Source: a virus. Taken from it: a stretch of 28,648 bases of DNA. The notes under the pieces were generated by a model, which saw nothing but the letters and a program-made list of their open reading frames with translations, did not search any database and was not told the origin of the DNA. The DNA is taken from positions 1-28,648 of the IMG/VR virus record IMGVR_UViG_3300046467_000278; one strand, given 5' to 3'. How positions within the stretch are numbered: the first letter of the stretch is position 1; every line of letters begins with the position of its first letter. Both the position numbers and the translations under genes were made by a program. Shown here piece by piece: positions 16,856 through 28,648 of the stretch.

Positions 16856-18895
16856 TTAACTAGCTTTGTACTTGTAAGCCCACTTGGAAGTTGCACCCGC
16901 GATTAAATCGTCGAATCCAATTCTTTGTGAAGCAACAATAACTCTGCGCTGGTTAGCCACTTCGTAATCTGACTCTAAAGTCACACCACGTAATCTTGGC
17001 ATCACATAGTTTCTTGCGTATACTGCAATAGCTCCGAATCCATTAGCTGCTTGTGCAGGGAACTCGTCACAAAGAAGAATCCTTGATCCGAATACCTGTC
17101 CAATCTCGCCTCTGAGTTTGGTAGCCATGTCGCCTACTAAATTAGCATCTTGGAATTCAGCATCTTCCAATAGTTGGAAATATACTGCTTGAGATACGAT
17201 GTAAACTACGTCGTTAGGATTAACGCCATATTTACCCATATTCTTCCTCATGCTTAATAGATTAGCGGCAGTAACGGTGTCTGTTGCGACTGCGGTAGTT
17301 GATTGTGTTTGATCACTATCAGCTGCTGCCATCGTTACTAGTCCATCAAACGTTCCTGATGTATAAACACCAGTTGAATGATTTCCTAATAGGATTGCAT
17401 TTTCAATCCCTTTCGCGTGAGATCTAACGATTGACTCTCTAATCAACGGAAGAATAGGCATAATTGCATCCTCTTCTGTTTCATTTCCTAAGTATGATTG
17501 TGAAATCAGTTTCTTAGTACTAAGAGTTTTCTCTGTTAAATCAACACCACCGAATGGTGAACCATAAGTATCACCTGTTTGTGCTAAGTTACCATGTGGA
17601 GATGATCCAGTTGCGGCTTGGTTGCTAGTGAACTCTGCGTAACCACTATCTGGTAAGATAGGGATTATCATGTTCGCTGCTGTTAGAGTAATTTCTCTAA
17701 AAAGAGGTGCCAAAACTAATTCGTTTTGGATATCTCTTTCAACGTTGGTTGATACAACTTGCTCAAAGTCTGCACTTGAAACGCCAACACCCGAATGGGC
17801 ATTAACTTTTTCATGTATAGATTTGGCATATTCAGTATCGAAACCTCTGCCGGTCGCTAGACCAAGTACTTTTGCATCGACTACGTCGTTTGCAAATGCT
17901 TTTTGCCAGTCGCCTTCACCTCTGCGGTCTGAGAATATTCGTTTAGATTCGCGCATATTCATTATGTCTTCAGATCTCTCTTTCAACTCAGCTTGAAGTT
18001 CGCGGACTACTTGTCCTAAATCTTCTTGCTTTTCATTTACGCGTTTCTCGATATCTCTAACCAGAGTTTCAGCTCCAGTAGTTACTGCCCTTACGACAGT
18101 TTTGTGTTCCTCTTGCTTCGCTTCCACTGCTGCTTTCTGTTCGGCTTCTAGTTTAGCGGCATTTTCTGCTGCGTCCACTTTAGCTTTTTCGTCTGCGGCT
18201 TTAAGTTCGGCTTGCTTCATTGCATAAGATGCAACTGCTTTTTCGGCAGCGTCTTTTGCGTATGACTCAAGGTCGAACTCAGGGGAAGTTACAGGAGTGT
18301 TTTTTTCTTCTGACATCTTCGTCTCCGTTTTGTCGGCTCTCGCCTTGCTTGACTGTTCAATCTTTGCGTTAGCGTCGATTGAAGAAGTCTTTATAAAGTC
18401 TTGTTTAAACGTGTTGTACTCTTCTATATTGTCAAATGATTTGGCAATTGAGAAGACTGCGTCTTGGTTACAAGGAACCGAAACAACAGACACTTCGAAC
18501 AGTTCTGCGTCCTTTATCTTATATCCGTCGGTTTCATTGATATAATCTGCATCCTTGACTTTGAAACCTACGGAAAAAGCCCCAAGAACGCCATCTTTAA
18601 TAAGATCTTTAATATCGCCAGCTGACTTAGATATACGTGCTGTAATCTCTAAACCATCATTGCTGACTTCTATTTCTTTTGCCCGACCTATTGGTCGGTC
18701 ATAATTGTGATTGAATAAAAGGATTGGATTATTTTTATAATTATTTAACCCACCTTTAGTCCAAGCACTTGCTTCAATAATATCTCCAGCTCTGTCTAAT
18801 GAGTTGGTACTTGCTGATCCTTTGATATCAAGTCCCCCATCATCATCTTCGCCTAAGCTTTTGAAACTATTTGTCCAATGAAATATCTTATCCAT
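16856..18895 (-). CDS. Fused prohead protease (S78/HK97 type) and major capsid protein
   Basis: One 679-residue ORF encodes both head-maturation protease and capsid subunit. Residues 1-155 are an S78-type prohead protease: FNHNYDRPIG with catalytic H63, GAFSVGF with S108, and ELFEVSVVSVPCN near 131-143. Residues 200-315 form a long Ala/Glu/Lys-rich coiled coil, equivalent to the HK97 delta scaffold. The rest is an HK97-fold capsid protein, with the N-arm near 330-390 and the core ending in RVIVASQRIGFDDLIAGATSKW. Start ATG 18895 follows the small gene upstream by 2 bp. An internal ATG at residue 194 has its own ribosome-binding site (separate entry). Protease-capsid fusions are known in some phages; the mature protein is released by cleavage. 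Confidence 0.93.
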   Translation of the reverse strand: MDKIFHWTNSFKSLGEDDDGGLDIKGSASTNSLDRAGDIIEASAWTKGGLNNYKNNPILLFNHNYDRPIGRAKEIEVSNDGLEITARISKSAGDIKDLIKDGVLGAFSVGFKVKDADYINETDGYKIKDAELFEVSVVSVPCNQDAVFSIAKSFDNIEEYNTFKQDFIKTSSIDANAKIEQSSKARADKTETKMSEEKNTPVTSPEFDLESYAKDAAEKAVASYAMKQAELKAADEKAKVDAAENAAKLEAEQKAAVEAKQEEHKTVVRAVTTGAETLVRDIEKRVNEKQEDLGQVVRELQAELKERSEDIMNMRESKRIFSDRRGEGDWQKAFANDVVDAKVLGLATGRGFDTEYAKSIHEKVNAHSGVGVSSADFEQVVSTNVERDIQNELVLAPLFREITLTAANMIIPILPDSGYAEFTSNQAATGSSPHGNLAQTGDTYGSPFGGVDLTEKTLSTKKLISQSYLGNETEEDAIMPILPLIRESIVRSHAKGIENAILLGNHSTGVYTSGTFDGLVTMAAADSDQTQSTTAVATDTVTAANLLSMRKNMGKYGVNPNDVVYIVSQAVYFQLLEDAEFQDANLVGDMATKLRGEIGQVFGSRILLCDEFPAQAANGFGAIAVYARNYVMPRLRGVTLESDYEVANQRRVIVASQRIGFDDLIAGATSKWAYKYKAS
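18314..18326 (-). promoter_or_regulatory. Internal ribosome-binding site and start inside the protease-capsid ORF
   Basis: In the minus strand, GGAG (18326-18323) lies six bases before an in-frame ATG (18316-18314), codon 194 of the fused ORF. It sits exactly at the junction between the protease and the coiled-coil scaffold (product starts MSEEKNTPVTS). Initiation here would give a 486-residue scaffold-capsid protein without protease. That would set the high capsid-to-protease ratio that heads need. The placement at a domain border argues against chance, but use has not been shown. Confidence 0.6.
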
Positions 18896-20753: not shown

Positions 20754-20794
20754 ATTATACTAAAATTTGGGACTAATGTCAAGAACTATTTTTG
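20754..20794 (-). promoter_or_regulatory. Consensus sigma70 promoter for the head-tail operon
   Basis: On the minus strand TTGACA (20782-20777), a 17-bp spacer and TATAAT (20759-20754) form a perfect sigma70 promoter pointing at the HNH gene. The upstream sequence CAAAAATAGTTCTTGACA (20794-20777) and the spacer end TTTAG are the same as in the promoter at 24254-24294. The predicted start of RNA is near 20747. It probably drives the HNH, portal, capsid and tail genes. Confidence 0.88.
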
Positions 20795-24253: not shown

Positions 24254-24294
24254 ATTATACTAAATTTTGTGGTTGTTGTCAAGAACTATTTTTG
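24254..24294 (-). promoter_or_regulatory. Consensus sigma70 promoter for the small-gene and terminase unit
   Basis: Minus strand: TTGACA (24282-24277), 17-bp spacer, TATAAT (24259-24254), pointing at the gene starting at 24206. The 18-bp block CAAAAATAGTTCTTGACA (24294-24277) is identical to that at 20777-20794 and here includes the last codons and stop of the cyclase gene. It separates the accessory operon from the packaging genes. Confidence 0.88.
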
Positions 24295-26055
24295 TATGGT
24301 GTATATTTTAACTGGTTCCGACTTGCCTTTTACAACAACTTCGTCCAAGAATTCATATTCATACCCATCTACTAGACTATGCTCGGAAATAATTAAATCC
24401 GTCTCATAAGTCTTACAGCTACTTTCTAAGCGAGCAGCGAGGTTAACAGCATCGCCAAGAACACTGTAATCGAACCTAGTATTACTACCCATGTTGCCGA
24501 CAACACAAAGTCCTGTGTTAATTCCGCATCCAGTATGGATTTCAGGGATTTTTTCAGCTTTAAATATTTCATTTAATTCTCCTAATGCTTCTCTCATTTC
24601 AAGAGCGCACTCAGTAGCTTTTCTTTCTTGGTCTTCCACGTCTAAGGGAGCATTCCAGAAAGCCATAATGCAGTCTCCCATGTACTTATCCACACATCCC
24701 TCGTGCTTCTGTATTATCTCAGTCTGATTAGTTAAAAAACGATTAACTATCTCCACTAATTTTTGTGGATCCGACTGGTATTTTTCCGAAATTGGGGTAA
24801 ATCCCCGAATATCCGAAAATAGAAAAGTCATACGTTTTGTAACCCCACCCAGTCTCAGTAATGTTGGGTCTTTTTGTAATTTTTCAACCAAGGCAGGACT
24901 AACATAGGTCCCAAATTGTTGTTTGATCTGTAATCTCAACAAGTATTGAGTAATAAAACTACGGAATTGTACAATACTCCAGAATAAAAACAGGATCACG
25001 AGCGATCCCGAGACGTCAAGTAAGTAGGAAGACTCTATAAGCTTCCATGAAGTGAAGCCAGTCCCTCCTAATAGTACTAAAATGACAGGTACGCTAAGAT
25101 ATATGTTACTAGCTACTATCATAATTGCTATCATTCCTGTAACTAGTATGGTAAGTTCCGCCCATAGGCTCCATGAGGGTTGGGAAAGTGCGTTTCCGTT
25201 TACTATTGTGTTAAGAACTGTTGCTTGGATATCATGTGGGTACTTTACCCCGCCTGGAGTTGCTACAAGAGGAGCCACTCCCTCTGCTGTTACACCAAAT
25301 ATTACAAAGGGTGCAGGTATCGGCTCTTTTAAATACTCTAAAGCGGTCTGTCTATAGAACTTGGTATTCCAATTCGCCCAAACAGTACCGTTTTCACTAG
25401 TTATTATCTTATTGTATTGCGGAAGCCTTATCCATTCGACTCCTGTCTCTTCAGTCTTTATCTGATAGCTGGGGTCTCCAGTACCAAGTCGAAGCATTTC
25501 GAGTGCAAAGCTAGGATATATCCTATTTTCTACACTTATTGCGAGAGGAATCCTTCTTACGACCCCGTCTAGCTCTGGGCTTGTTGATATTAGCCCCACG
25601 CCTTGGCTTTCTAACGCTGACCGTAAAATTCCGGGGTATTGATATAGCCATTCTGCTGGATTTCCTCCTCCTAACTGCGCCGTTCCTACATGTGGTCCGC
25701 CTTCAAAGGCTTGCGTGCTTCCTATAAAGGAAAGTACAGTAGGAATGTGATTTAAAGTTGTCTGAAATATCTCATCTTTGCCATGAAGGTCTTTATCTGG
25801 AAAAGCTACAGTGATTCCTGGTACACCTTGAGTAATAGTCAGTAAATTAGCATACACATCTCTTGATAAAGGGTATCCTCCAAACTTTTCTACTGTATCT
25901 TCATCAATATCTACTAATAAGATCATTTCATCTTGAACTTCGTCCCGAGACATTATCAAAGCATCAAGTGACTTGAGCTCTAGTATCTGAAAAGGGTACG
26001 GATTCCAAATAAAAAGCGCCGCAAGAGCGGCAGCTAGTAGTAAATTGACTTTCAT
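24286..26055 (-). CDS. CHASE2-domain membrane nucleotide (adenylate) cyclase, class III
   Basis: This 589-residue protein is a transmembrane sensor that should make cAMP on an external signal. An N-terminal membrane helix (about 3-17) is followed by a periplasmic CHASE2 sensor (about 22-290; MILLVDIDEDTVEKFGGYPL, later FVIFGVTAEGVAPLVATPGG). Three membrane helices (about 297-365) and a class III cyclase domain (about 400-580) come next. The cyclase keeps both metal-binding Asp residues (FSDIRGFT and KYMGDCIMAFW), the Lys before MGD for adenine binding, and the GDAVNLAARLE motif with catalytic Asn and Arg, so it looks active. I chose ATG 26055, which overlaps the previous stop (TAATG), over the TTG at 26082. 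The gene is unusual for a phage. FecR genes often neighbour such cyclases in bacteria, as here. Guanylate cyclase activity is the alternative. Confidence 0.9.
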   Translation of the reverse strand: MKVNLLLAAALAALFIWNPYPFQILELKSLDALIMSRDEVQDEMILLVDIDEDTVEKFGGYPLSRDVYANLLTITQGVPGITVAFPDKDLHGKDEIFQTTLNHIPTVLSFIGSTQAFEGGPHVGTAQLGGGNPAEWLYQYPGILRSALESQGVGLISTSPELDGVVRRIPLAISVENRIYPSFALEMLRLGTGDPSYQIKTEETGVEWIRLPQYNKIITSENGTVWANWNTKFYRQTALEYLKEPIPAPFVIFGVTAEGVAPLVATPGGVKYPHDIQATVLNTIVNGNALSQPSWSLWAELTILVTGMIAIMIVASNIYLSVPVILVLLGGTGFTSWKLIESSYLLDVSGSLVILFLFWSIVQFRSFITQYLLRLQIKQQFGTYVSPALVEKLQKDPTLLRLGGVTKRMTFLFSDIRGFTPISEKYQSDPQKLVEIVNRFLTNQTEIIQKHEGCVDKYMGDCIMAFWNAPLDVEDQERKATECALEMREALGELNEIFKAEKIPEIHTGCGINTGLCVVGNMGSNTRFDYSVLGDAVNLAARLESSCKTYETDLIISEHSLVDGYEYEFLDEVVVKGKSEPVKIYTIQK

Positions 26056-26900
26056 TAGTCTTGTGTTACTGCAATGGTACAACCACCTACAGTTATGCAG
26101 GTCTGAGTTAGAGTATAGTTCTGTGTTGTATTACTATGCTGTGAAATATCTAAATCAGTTCCATAAGTTCCATTGAGTGTGATAGTTGCGTTGTGTTCAC
26201 CATTTCCGTCTTGAAGATAATCTACTACATTGTCATCATTGTTGATAGTTAGATAAAATTCTTTTCCACCATCAGCTTTTTGTTTACCAAAGACAGAGTT
26301 ATCATCTCCGTATAAGTAGATTCTTGCATTATGCCCACTACAGATATTAGCAGAACAATTTCGTTGTTGTCCAACTATTGTATTATTATTTCCGTGTATA
26401 TCTAAAGTAACTGAATGACCCCCGCCTTCTGTGTTATCTACAGCCCAACTAGTATCTGTTCGACTTGAAATTTCAAATCCTTGCGCCCACCATAGTTTAT
26501 TGTCTGTTCCATAACTTACGTGGAATTGAATATCATTTTTATTACAAGCAGTTCCTTTAGTACAATTTTGCCAGAGTTTTATATCTTGGTCGTCAAAGTC
26601 TATATCACCGCCCCAAGCAACTCCTGAACCCCAACTAGGATAATCATTAGCATATCCAATTTCATTATTATTCCCTTTCTGATAAATCTCAATATCAACG
26701 TTGTCTCCGTCTCCTAATGAAAAGAATATATCATTGTTATATCCTTCTTGAGTAATATCTAAAGTTAGGTTATCTCCTTGAGCTACCTGATCAATAACTA
26801 TTTCATTATCTCCCCAAACCTTTTGTGCTCCGAAAATTAGTACTAAAATGACGGCAAGACAGCCGAAGTATACAATAGTAATTTTGTTATTTTCTTTCAT
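26055..26900 (-). CDS. Curlin-like repeat protein, exported
   Basis: This 281-residue protein has an N-terminal hydrophobic anchor or signal (ITIVYFGCLAVILVLIFGAQ, residues 7-26), then many strand-like repeats resembling CsgA/curlin repeats: DITQEGYNNDI, EIYQKGNNNEI, DIHGNNNTIVGQ and LYGDDNSVFGKQ. These Gln-x-Gly-x-Asn-Asn and Gly-x-x-Asn patterns give a beta-solenoid or amyloid-type fold. Three short Cys-bracketed loops (NCTKGTACN, NCSANICSG, TCITVGGC) are unlike E. coli CsgA and suggest disulfides. The C-terminus resembles the partial protein at 28528-28648. ATG overlaps the upstream stop (TAATG). A cell-surface adhesin, fibre or matrix subunit is likely; no CsgG- or CsgF-like export gene is in the window. 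Confidence 0.72.
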   Translation of the reverse strand: MKENNKITIVYFGCLAVILVLIFGAQKVWGDNEIVIDQVAQGDNLTLDITQEGYNNDIFFSLGDGDNVDIEIYQKGNNNEIGYANDYPSWGSGVAWGGDIDFDDQDIKLWQNCTKGTACNKNDIQFHVSYGTDNKLWWAQGFEISSRTDTSWAVDNTEGGGHSVTLDIHGNNNTIVGQQRNCSANICSGHNARIYLYGDDNSVFGKQKADGGKEFYLTINNDDNVVDYLQDGNGEHNATITLNGTYGTDLDISQHSNTTQNYTLTQTCITVGGCTIAVTQD

Positions 26901-27274
26901 TAAAATCTCTTCCTCCAGTAAATGCCATTATGTGCAACTACTAATCCTTGGGTTGCATTCAACCACCACAAGGCTTTTTCTCTCTTAATTAAATCTTTGT
27001 CCAACATATAGTAGATTCCAATATTTCCTATTACTTTAAGCATCACTACCTCGTGTTTTTGTGGGTGAGAACCTAAAATTGGGTTCGCCTCATGGATCAT
27101 GCAGTTAGATAGTTTTTGACAATCTATCATTTTAAATGCCTGATAAGTATCTAGTGCAGATAAGGCTATATAGCTATGATATAGCTTTCTTTCCGTCTCA
27201 GTCCATTGTTTATAGGCAGCGTCGCATGAGCCTGCTGCACTTAAAAATAATATTGCTAGTAGGAGCTTAGTCAT
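26900..27274 (-). CDS. Putative lipoprotein, unknown family
   Basis: This 124-residue protein begins MTKLLLAILFLSAAGSCDAA, a signal peptide with a possible lipobox (A-G-S-C17). The mature part has a pattern seen in small phage and bacterial proteins: helix LYHSYIALSALDTYQAFKMI, then CxxxxxC (C-QKLSN-C), EANPILGSHP, a hydrophobic helix (VIGNIGIYYML), and a basic end. I chose ATG 27274, which overlaps the stop of the 59-residue gene (ATGA), over TTG 27292. It would sit at the outer membrane or inner membrane face of the periplasm, near the FecR and cyclase products. Confidence 0.65.
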   Translation of the reverse strand: MTKLLLAILFLSAAGSCDAAYKQWTETERKLYHSYIALSALDTYQAFKMIDCQKLSNCMIHEANPILGSHPQKHEVVMLKVIGNIGIYYMLDKDLIKREKALWWLNATQGLVVAHNGIYWRKRF

Positions 27275-27450
27275 GTTGTTTCCATATAGCAATTCTTGGT
27301 TACGTGCTGATTATTCATCTGACGTGCCCAGTCTAGCTCTTGGATAAGTCTATTGTACCATTGCTTATCGTGTTCAGTGTTAGGTCTAGATAACTCCTCT
27401 TTGAGTTGTTCGATCCTTACCTCAATATAATTTGGTTTTACTCTTTTCAT
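27271..27450 (-). CDS. Hypothetical 59-residue protein
   Basis: This short cytoplasmic, highly charged protein (MKRVKPNYIEVRIEQLKEEL and a second helix QWYNRLIQELDWARQM) looks like a two-helix coiled coil. AGGAG lies eight bases before ATG 27450, 11 bp after the FecR stop. Its stop overlaps the start of the lipoprotein gene (ATGA). No family is recognised. Small helical proteins with this LKEEL and WYNRLIQEL style are common in phage genomes, which supports a phage origin for the cassette. Confidence 0.6.
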   Translation of the reverse strand: MKRVKPNYIEVRIEQLKEELSRPNTEHDKQWYNRLIQELDWARQMNNQHVTKNCYMETT

Positions 27451-27461
27451 ACGAAATCTCC

Positions 27462-28583
27462 TTAATTCGTTTGTGTTATAATTATACTTACCGCGTACCC
27501 ATCTCCTACGGTTATTAAACTTTCTTTTTCATCTGTTATAGTGCTTATTGATGCATTTGCATATATAGGCATCTTAATACTGATTATTCCTGTTACTTCA
27601 CGATAAAACCATATTTGACCAGATGAGTCAACTATAGTATTATACTGACTATCTTTATCAAAACCTGGTGCTGTACCCGTTATATTAACATTATCAAAGC
27701 CTTTGCTTTTCTTTCTACTAAGTAGATCGCCTTCTTCGATAATGGATAGCATATCTTGTAAAAAATCTACATTTAGTAGATCCATATCAAGTTCTGTATA
27801 TTCTAATTCTCTTTTATCTAAGTGATCTTTCTCTAATTCATTAAATTCAAGAAAATCAGCAGTGAATACATTGGTTTTACTATTTTCATTTGCTTCTTCT
27901 TGTACTGCTTGTTGCACCTCTGCAGGAGCACTTACAATAAATAAATTATCAATTTGAGCAACAGTAATATTTGTAATAGTTACAGGTCTTACTGGAGGAG
28001 TTGAAATAGTGGATACCATCGTTGCTTGGTATGCTTCATTTAGTGTTACTACTCCGCCCTGATTAGTTACTGTTATCTCTCCAGACGCATGTCCATTTAA
28101 GTCTGGTAAAAGAATGATTAGGCTACGTCCCAACTCATCTACGGTAGCTGTGAAATCCGTTCCACGAATACCAATAGTAGCCGTAGGAGTTTCAATCCTA
28201 ATGTTTGCCTTGTTAATCATTCCAAGTTTGCCAGAAGTGAATCTGGCTGTTCCCATAGCAAACTTCATTGCCATTTTAGATTTTGAAGGATCGGGGTCAT
28301 AAATAACCTCGTCTATCAAAACCCTGCTATGTTCTGTTAGCCGTAGTTCTGCTTCATCAGCAAATTCCACCGCTATGCGCCCGTTGCCCGTATTGAGCGT
28401 ATCGTATAATTCTACGTCTGCTCCTACTGTGGCAACAAGTTCATTTTGCGCTCTAGTTAAAGAGCCGATTCCCGTTTGTTCTGTAATGTCTCCTATTGGA
28501 GCTGCCCATACAGTGACGGGGAAAATACTAATCAGTAGTATCTTTCTGGTTAATTGTAACAGTTGCACCTTCTGAGTCCACAT
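27462..28583 (-). CDS. FecR-domain exported protein
   Basis: This 373-residue protein has an N-terminal signal peptide (IFPVTVWA, cleavage near residue 28) and a FecR domain (about 35-170): the GNGRIAVEFADEAELRLTEH strand pair and the hallmark TPTATIGIRGTDF at about 130-142. The domain continues to a NQGGVVTLNEAYQAT segment. The remaining 170 residues are acidic and unrecognised (ELEKDHLDKRELEYTELDMD). FecR domains sense or bind ligands in the periplasm; here no sigma factor is adjacent, so it may act with the CHASE2 cyclase. ATG 28583 lies within the end of the previous gene (56 bp overlap) with no clear ribosome-binding site; GTG slightly downstream is an alternative start. Confidence 0.85.
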   Translation of the reverse strand: MWTQKVQLLQLTRKILLISIFPVTVWAAPIGDITEQTGIGSLTRAQNELVATVGADVELYDTLNTGNGRIAVEFADEAELRLTEHSRVLIDEVIYDPDPSKSKMAMKFAMGTARFTSGKLGMINKANIRIETPTATIGIRGTDFTATVDELGRSLIILLPDLNGHASGEITVTNQGGVVTLNEAYQATMVSTISTPPVRPVTITNITVAQIDNLFIVSAPAEVQQAVQEEANENSKTNVFTADFLEFNELEKDHLDKRELEYTELDMDLLNVDFLQDMLSIIEEGDLLSRKKSKGFDNVNITGTAPGFDKDSQYNTIVDSSGQIWFYREVTGIISIKMPIYANASISTITDEKESLITVGDGYAVSIIITQTN

Positions 28584-28648
28584 CTATATTTATTATGCCT
28601 GAGCAGGAAGAAATTCCACTAGGACAGGTTCCAGATTTTTGAATAATG
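28528..28648 (-). CDS. Curlin-like repeat protein, C-terminal end only
   Basis: Only the last 39 codons lie in the window; the gene continues to the right. The visible end reads IIQKSGTCPSGISSC, then INIDVDSEGATVTINQKD, with a Cys-bracketed loop followed by beta strands and a Gln-Lys end. It has the same style as the end of the 26055-26900 protein. It is probably a second member of the same curlin-like family. Its last 56 bp overlap the FecR gene in another frame. Confidence 0.5.
   Translation of the reverse strand, partial: IIQKSGTCPSGISSCSGIINIDVDSEGATVTINQKDTTD

Follow-up and report, generated by a model that had tools for sequence, protein, structure and literature searches.

What does a run of tightly packed, mostly envelope-directed genes do at the very end of a viral genome fragment? 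The window analysed here is the whole IMG/VR virus record IMGVR_UViG_3300046467_000278, a linear fragment of 28,648 bases that ends inside the first of six such genes, all on the minus strand: a curlin-like fragment, a FecR-domain protein, a 59-residue open reading frame (ORF), a small secreted protein, a second curlin-like protein and a CHASE2 nucleotide cyclase (Table 1). The six genes almost certainly make up the 3′ portion of a type VIII secretion (curli) module of viral kind, and comparison with relatives places the core of the system, the predicted CsgG/CsgF curli export pore, beyond the window edge. The best explanation of the whole, to which we assign a probability of roughly 0.6, is a curli module with a built-in envelope-to-cyclic AMP (cAMP) signalling arm in a siphovirus.

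All six ORFs of the compact cluster described in the initial annotation are present, and every overlap and gap that it listed agrees with the sequence. The first curlin and FecR genes overlap by 56 nt (28528–28583), an 11-nt gap (27451–27461) separates the FecR gene from the 59-residue ORF, which joins the small-protein gene at an ATGA (27271–27274), and the last two junctions are TAATG (at 26900, between the small-protein and second curlin genes, and at 26055, between the latter and the cyclase gene). The cyclase reading frame opens with ATG, a longer TTG start at 26082 being unneeded. Pfam profiles recognize CHASE2 (1.1e-30), Guanylate_cyc (2.6e-20), FecR (3.2e-10) and Curlin_rpt (3e-4) among the products.

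This arrangement goes beyond chance because the same order recurs across many contigs, which also removes the initial annotation's proviso that the gene set might be found nowhere else. Relatives of the cyclase are encoded on at least 599 IMG/VR stretches. The complete module in relatives consists of two small membrane proteins, CsgF, CsgG, curlin, FecR, (small protein), curlin and CHASE2-cyclase, and the window shows this order from its fragmentary first curlin onwards, with FecR after it and then the second curlin and the cyclase. The nearest relative (locus L002), whose cyclase is 92% identical to that of the window, has both csgF (Pfam 1.5e-13) and csgG (6.5e-47), in the order small terminase, IscU, IscA, two small membrane proteins (97 and about 90 residues), CsgF, CsgG, curlin, FecR, small protein, curlin, cyclase, 65-residue protein and large terminase. 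The identity of the window's first curlin rests on its match to the full gene that lies between CsgG and FecR in L002 (89% over the matched part). In 77 distinct virus loci the DNA reaches at least 5.5 kb upstream of the cyclase (hereafter testable loci); CsgF, CsgG, curlin and FecR are present in all 77 and both small membrane proteins in 74, Pelagibacter phage HTVC008M included. The same module order is seen in HTVC008M and Methylophilales phage Melnitz; the commonest T4-like order occurs in siphoviral loci too, and in many the small secreted protein replaces the second curlin. The two small membrane proteins are probably the published ‘histidine kinases’. No kinase domain was found before csgF in any of the viruses tested, which include HTVC008M and Melnitz, and no HATPase_c in 14 siphoviral contigs.

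The ratio of nonsynonymous to synonymous substitution (dN/dS) between the window and L002 is 0.07 for the cyclase, 0.13 for FecR and 0.16 for the second curlin, with the large terminase as a yardstick at 0.04. Together with the conservation of catalytic positions described below, these low values exclude decay, the other outcome against which the initial annotation had set its proposal. Its view of one unit with mostly envelope products and a paired FecR and CHASE2-cyclase is backed by synteny, fold predictions and purifying selection.

The cyclase contains the residues expected of class III enzymes, with two metal-binding Asp, the purine-recognizing Lys and Asp/Thr/Ser, and the transition-state Asn and Arg all present (D415, D461, K457, S531, N538 and R542); K576 is a further catalytic residue. 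D415, K457 and D461 are invariant in 231 of 231 cyclases, and the other catalytic positions are conserved in 227–230 of them. The best solved relative is CyaB (3r5g, 2.4e-32), and the intact catalytic residues make cAMP the likely output. A search for a cNMP_binding domain in 14 virus contigs, HTVC008M and Melnitz gave no match, so a phage-borne cAMP receptor was discarded for the contigs searched and a host receptor would read the signal. Pycsar was likewise rejected: PycC profiles match the shared catalytic domain (1.8e-27), but FecR, the second curlin and the small protein match no effector of the PycTM/PycTIR kind. A FecR gene also adjoins the cyclase in 8 of 79 cellular CHASE2-cyclase loci that lack curli genes; 8 of the 13 FecR genes in the flanks of these loci are adjacent to the cyclase, against 2.6 expected (p 0.001). 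This adjacency, with the neighbouring FecR and CHASE2 kinase genes of a Burkholderia biofilm operon (PMC5192318), supports the idea that FecR and CHASE2 act together.

The FecR protein has a signal helix (residues 2–20) followed directly by a FecR-type domain (about 27–221), its only Pfam match (PF04773), then a poorly predicted linker and a confidently modelled C-terminal region of six strands that ends in IIITQTN. Its domain superimposes on the PupR cell-surface signalling domain (6ovk, Z 15.6, 134 residues, 2.4 Å) and on a cell-surface anchoring domain (5ix9, Z 7.2). The modelled protein is thus a secreted domain of the signalling type, in which the N-terminal cytoplasmic anti-sigma part and membrane helix of the canonical FecIRA-type layout are not present. 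As further observations, the best sequence match of the module FecR profile to a solved structure is the antifreeze adhesin anchoring domain 5ix9 (E 0.09), and giant ORFs of up to 6,913 residues in Alphaproteobacteria genomes contain FecR domains; FecR-type folds may have a wider role in surface-fibre anchoring.

The end of this protein carries a recurrent motif. A C-terminal strand of the form [IV]x[IV]xQ, at most four residues from the stop and with a few other residues tolerated at strand positions, closes 115 of 118 module FecRs, and a similar strand ends 89 of the 150 curlins in these loci; none of 18 non-module bacterial FecRs has it. These counts come from related sequences that are not independent, though the groups share only about 35% identity. 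Q371 is invariant in 42 aligned sequences. A profile comparison of the C-terminal 76 residues with two curlin families gave P values of 0.04 and 0.02, and the FecR N-domain, used as a control, gave 0.02 and 0.07. As the control scores are equally good, homology of the tail to curlin was dropped and we claim the terminal motif only, a lead that FecR may be physically linked to the fibre, which falls short of proof.

The AlphaFold2 model of the second curlin-like protein shows a signal helix and a β-solenoid (predicted local distance difference test (pLDDT) 75, predicted template modelling score (pTM) 0.75), and its conserved C-terminal cap reads YxLxQxCxTxGGC. VIA-align superimposes the model on Pontibacter CsgA (8c50) with a Z-score of 14.1 (root mean square deviation of 8.9 over 188 residues). 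The gene labelled a lipoprotein in the initial annotation does encode a small secreted protein. The lipid-anchor part of that label is weak, because the cysteine of its SAAGSC motif is confined to near relatives; the signal of most homologues is of the ordinary Sec type and lacks it. Among the compared loci, a match to the 59-residue ORF occurs solely in the window and in L001, which is the window's own copy.

On its coding strand the window has two promoters that match the sigma-70 consensus perfectly, at 24282..24254 and 20782..20754, against an expectation of 0.02 in shuffled sequence. Of 74 siphoviral loci, 72 keep the former at the same place with 11 or 12 of its 12 consensus positions matched; in control windows inside the cyclase gene, 10 or more matches occur in only 33 of 1,150. 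A near-consensus promoter is found near the small terminase gene in most relatives with upstream DNA, few of which have one in between. These positions and their conservation suggest that the module most likely closes one transcription unit, presumably read by a host-type polymerase, with the large terminase and virion genes starting anew after it. The promoter at 20754–20782 lies between the large terminase and portal genes and is also kept in relatives. Terminator-like hairpins showed no excess over shuffled sequences, and Rfam gave no match in the window or in any of five related loci, so the glutamine riboswitch of Melnitz was not seen there.

By its structural genes, the carrier is a siphovirus whose head is of T5-like and whose tail is of lambda-like type. 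The large terminase matches that of Pectobacterium phage My1 at about 50%, the head genes are nearest those of T5-like phages (capsid 33–37% identical), the tape measure protein is weakly T5-like, and tail proteins fall in PHROGs of lambda-type minor tail, tail assembly and central fibre J proteins. The prohead protease and major capsid protein are apparently fused in a 679-residue ORF (16856–18895) that matches both HK97 protease and major head protein profiles. Among 50,697 phage records, the cyclase and FecR are matched over most of their length only by HTVC008M and Melnitz strains, and no cultured siphoviral relative with the module was found. A maximum-likelihood tree built from 64 cyclases (quick search, with Shimodaira–Hasegawa-like approximate likelihood ratio test (SH-aLRT) support only) groups the 15 siphoviral cyclases in one clade (99) and the T4-like ones in another (99); all viral cyclases and one cellular sequence stand apart from 20 cellular CHASE2-cyclases (100). 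As a separate observation, a metagenome-assembled genome of Caulobacteraceae contains, in this order, CsgF, CsgG, two curlin, FecR and cyclase genes flanked by bacterial genes (locus L084, contig CANGEH010000001.1, 3947–10004). Its cyclase is nested within the viral clade (support 100), and a full-length module FecR occurs in 1 of 385 genomes of its class, L084 alone. The locus was either passed from a virus to a bacterium or is related to the donor, unless the contig is chimeric.

Table 1. Features of the curli module and its downstream boundary in the window.
Feature	Coordinates	Strand	Description
First curlin-like protein (CsgA/B-type), C-terminal 39 residues	28528..28648	-	5′-open ORF cut by the window end; ends ...ATVTINQKDTTD
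Secreted FecR-domain protein, 373 residues	27462..28583	-	Sec-type signal, FecR/PupR-type fold, variable linker, C-terminal six-strand region
59-residue ORF, predicted soluble	27271..27450	-	ORF list and locus comparison
Small secreted protein, 124 residues	26900..27274	-	Accessory slot of the module; weakly DUF5658-like
Second curlin-like protein, 281 residues	26055..26900	-	Signal helix, predicted β-solenoid and C-terminal cap
CHASE2, membrane helices and class III nucleotide cyclase, 589 residues	24286..26055	-	ATG start; Pfam
Perfect sigma-70 consensus, TTGACA-17-TATAAT	24254..24282	-	Predicted unit boundary, 3 nt past the cyclase stop; reads into the next genes
Coiled-coil and membrane-helix protein, 65 residues	24009..24206	-	First gene of the next unit, boundary marker outside the module; in nearly all siphoviral loci

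Several further genes were seen around the module in related loci. Fe–S assembly genes lie between the small terminase gene and the curli module in 18–20 of 26 siphoviral loci (L002, 2079–2811, with NifU/IscU N-domain, 4.5e-38, and IscA-type, 5.7e-16, profiles). A phage contig of the window's lineage encodes an 812-residue TonB-dependent receptor (4.2e-41) adjoining the small terminase (L069, 490–2928), and some loci encode, immediately ahead of the module, a DNA/RNA non-specific endonuclease (PF01223) whose start looks like a signal (L080, 3500–4108; L028, 1375–1992). A 1,499-bp record labelled Salmonella phage S.Kent 1-2-1 (OR851715.1) matches CsgG at 40%; the label may be wrong and the DNA that of host curli genes.

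The following mechanism is proposed. The module genes would be transcribed in the infected cell from the host-sigma-70-type promoter near the small terminase gene. A pore of CsgG and CsgF in the outer membrane would let out the two curlin-like proteins, which would then assemble into surface fibres, and such fibre export is probable. The FecR-domain protein would stay in the periplasm, reading the state of the envelope or the fibre, perhaps with its curlin-like tail touching curlin subunits, and would act on the CHASE2 domain of the inner-membrane cyclase; we give this route from FecR through CHASE2 to cAMP an even chance. The cAMP would then act on host CRP-type regulators. Remodelling of the infected cell's surface is plausible, and the likeliest benefit would be an altered surface, through clumping that draws new hosts near or exclusion of rival phages, a suggestion that we make only tentatively. 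A more specific version, which we regard as doubtful, has FecR as a fibre-coupled sensor: its tail would bind curlin or cap it, either in the periplasm or within the pore, its FecR/PupR-type domain would pass that state to the CHASE2-cyclase, and cAMP would report fibre export to the host. If true, the phage would run a closed feedback loop over its own surface amyloid; to our knowledge, no such curli control is known in bacteria or phages.

A number of observations weigh against this scheme. CsgG and CsgF are known from relatives only, since the window is cut before that point. The Curlin_rpt match of the second curlin barely passes the cut-off, a Foldseek search with its model gave no significant match, and SufD solenoids outscore CsgA in VIA-align, so that the fold alone indicates a solenoid and not a curlin. 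The profile comparison found no significant relation of the FecR C-terminus to curlins. In bacterial curli export, CsgE and CsgC gate and chaperone; neither they nor CsgD were recognized in the upstream ORFs of the seven loci read, by inspection and not by profile search. Finally, transmission electron microscopy and cytograms of Melnitz-infected cells revealed no clumping (PMC9004378).

That infection without clumping would suit a role in lysis timing, as does the holin-accessory look of the 65-residue protein that opens the next unit and the constant presence of the pore proteins in the testable loci. A CsgG pore opened on signal would depolarize the envelope or make it leak, as in the pinholin-like trigger proposed for the CsgF/CsgG of Melnitz (PMC9004378), with curlins, FecR and cyclase merely gating it. 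However, CsgG crosses the outer membrane and not the inner one, and a bare pore would need neither of two curlin-like proteins whose solenoid and cap are conserved under selection, which leaves this explanation unlikely. The two curlins, together with CsgF, are left unexplained if an ungated CsgG pore admits nutrients, cofactors or iron compounds and FecR reads iron-type ligands, as proposed for uptake in PMC7029224 and PMC9599517. The FecR/PupR-type fold, the IscU/IscA genes and the lack of a recognized CsgE gate in the ORFs read would agree with uptake, but the FecR-type protein has no adjacent FecI/FecA partners and no N-terminal anti-sigma region, and we consider it rather improbable.

The essentially invariant active site of the 231 cyclases could instead mean that cAMP is the main product, reprogramming host metabolism through host CRP with the fibre part as sensor input; the absence of a phage cAMP receptor among the contigs searched likewise implies a host target. 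Against this, some podoviral modules have curli and FecR genes without a cyclase (PMC9599517), so the fibre part can stand alone, and a primary role for cAMP appears quite improbable. The notion of passenger genes, an acquired bacterial operon now silent and decaying, might draw on the fragmentary first gene, which reflects the assembly end and not decay. It is contradicted by the selection seen here (dN/dS 0.07–0.16), by deep conservation across virus groups and by the reported expression of pelagiphage versions (PMC9599517), and is very improbable indeed. Retention of the whole set by several virus groups argues for fibre export and signalling working together. The module of phage curli, FecR and cyclase extends beyond the pelagipodophages and pelagimyophages in which it was published: long-tailed phages whose head and tail genes are unrelated keep it under strong selection, in a promoter-bounded unit of their own. 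Its function and timing are open to direct tests through the conserved FecR tail and the promoter fixed 3 nt past the cyclase stop.

Relatives of this module have been described before. CsgF and CsgG, with partners given as unknown, were noted in pelagimyophages in 2020 (PMC7029224). The view in the initial annotation that no described phage system has this make-up does not hold, since a 2022 study (PMC9599517) gives the order HK-CsgF-CsgG-CsgA/B-FecR-CsgA/B-AC (HK, histidine kinase; AC, adenylate cyclase) in pelagipodophages and pelagimyophages; it found viral curli proteins at every one of the 65 GOV2.0 stations and reported expression of the pelagiphage genes in metatranscriptomes. That module has homologous proteins in the order also seen in the siphoviral version, namely CsgF, CsgG, curlin, FecR, second curlin and adenylate cyclase. 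The known carriers are podoviruses or myoviruses of Pelagibacter (and OM43), whereas the structural genes of the window are those of a siphovirus, which limits the claim of a pelagiphage and not that of this module; a search of the PMC literature found no report of siphovirus curli genes. The siphoviral version also differs in its single cyclase clade, its additional 59-residue and small secreted genes, its promoter-bounded unit with the small terminase gene and its upstream genes without a kinase domain. HTVC008M and Melnitz carry the whole module (cyclases 37% and 35% identical to that of the window; FecR 42%, over the matched part, and 34%). In these T4-like myoviruses it lies between replication and tail genes, and in siphoviruses between the small and large terminase genes.

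Bacterial curli operons of the csgBAC-csgDEFG type share the CsgG pore, CsgF and curlin-repeat subunits with the viral module, which differs in its built-in FecR and CHASE2-cyclase and in that no CsgE, CsgC or CsgD was recognized in the ORFs read. Unlike in the published account, FecR and cyclase do co-occur with curli genes in one bacterial contig, that of L084. The Burkholderia BiofilmReg operon (PMC5192318) likewise places a periplasmic FecR-domain gene beside a CHASE2 receptor and is biofilm-linked; there CHASE2 belongs to a histidine kinase that comes with a response regulator, whereas in the viral module it belongs to a cyclase. The kind of module seen in the window has been described in two virus groups; new here are the siphovirus carrier, the boundary promoter, the FecR tail and the kinase-less upstream membrane proteins.

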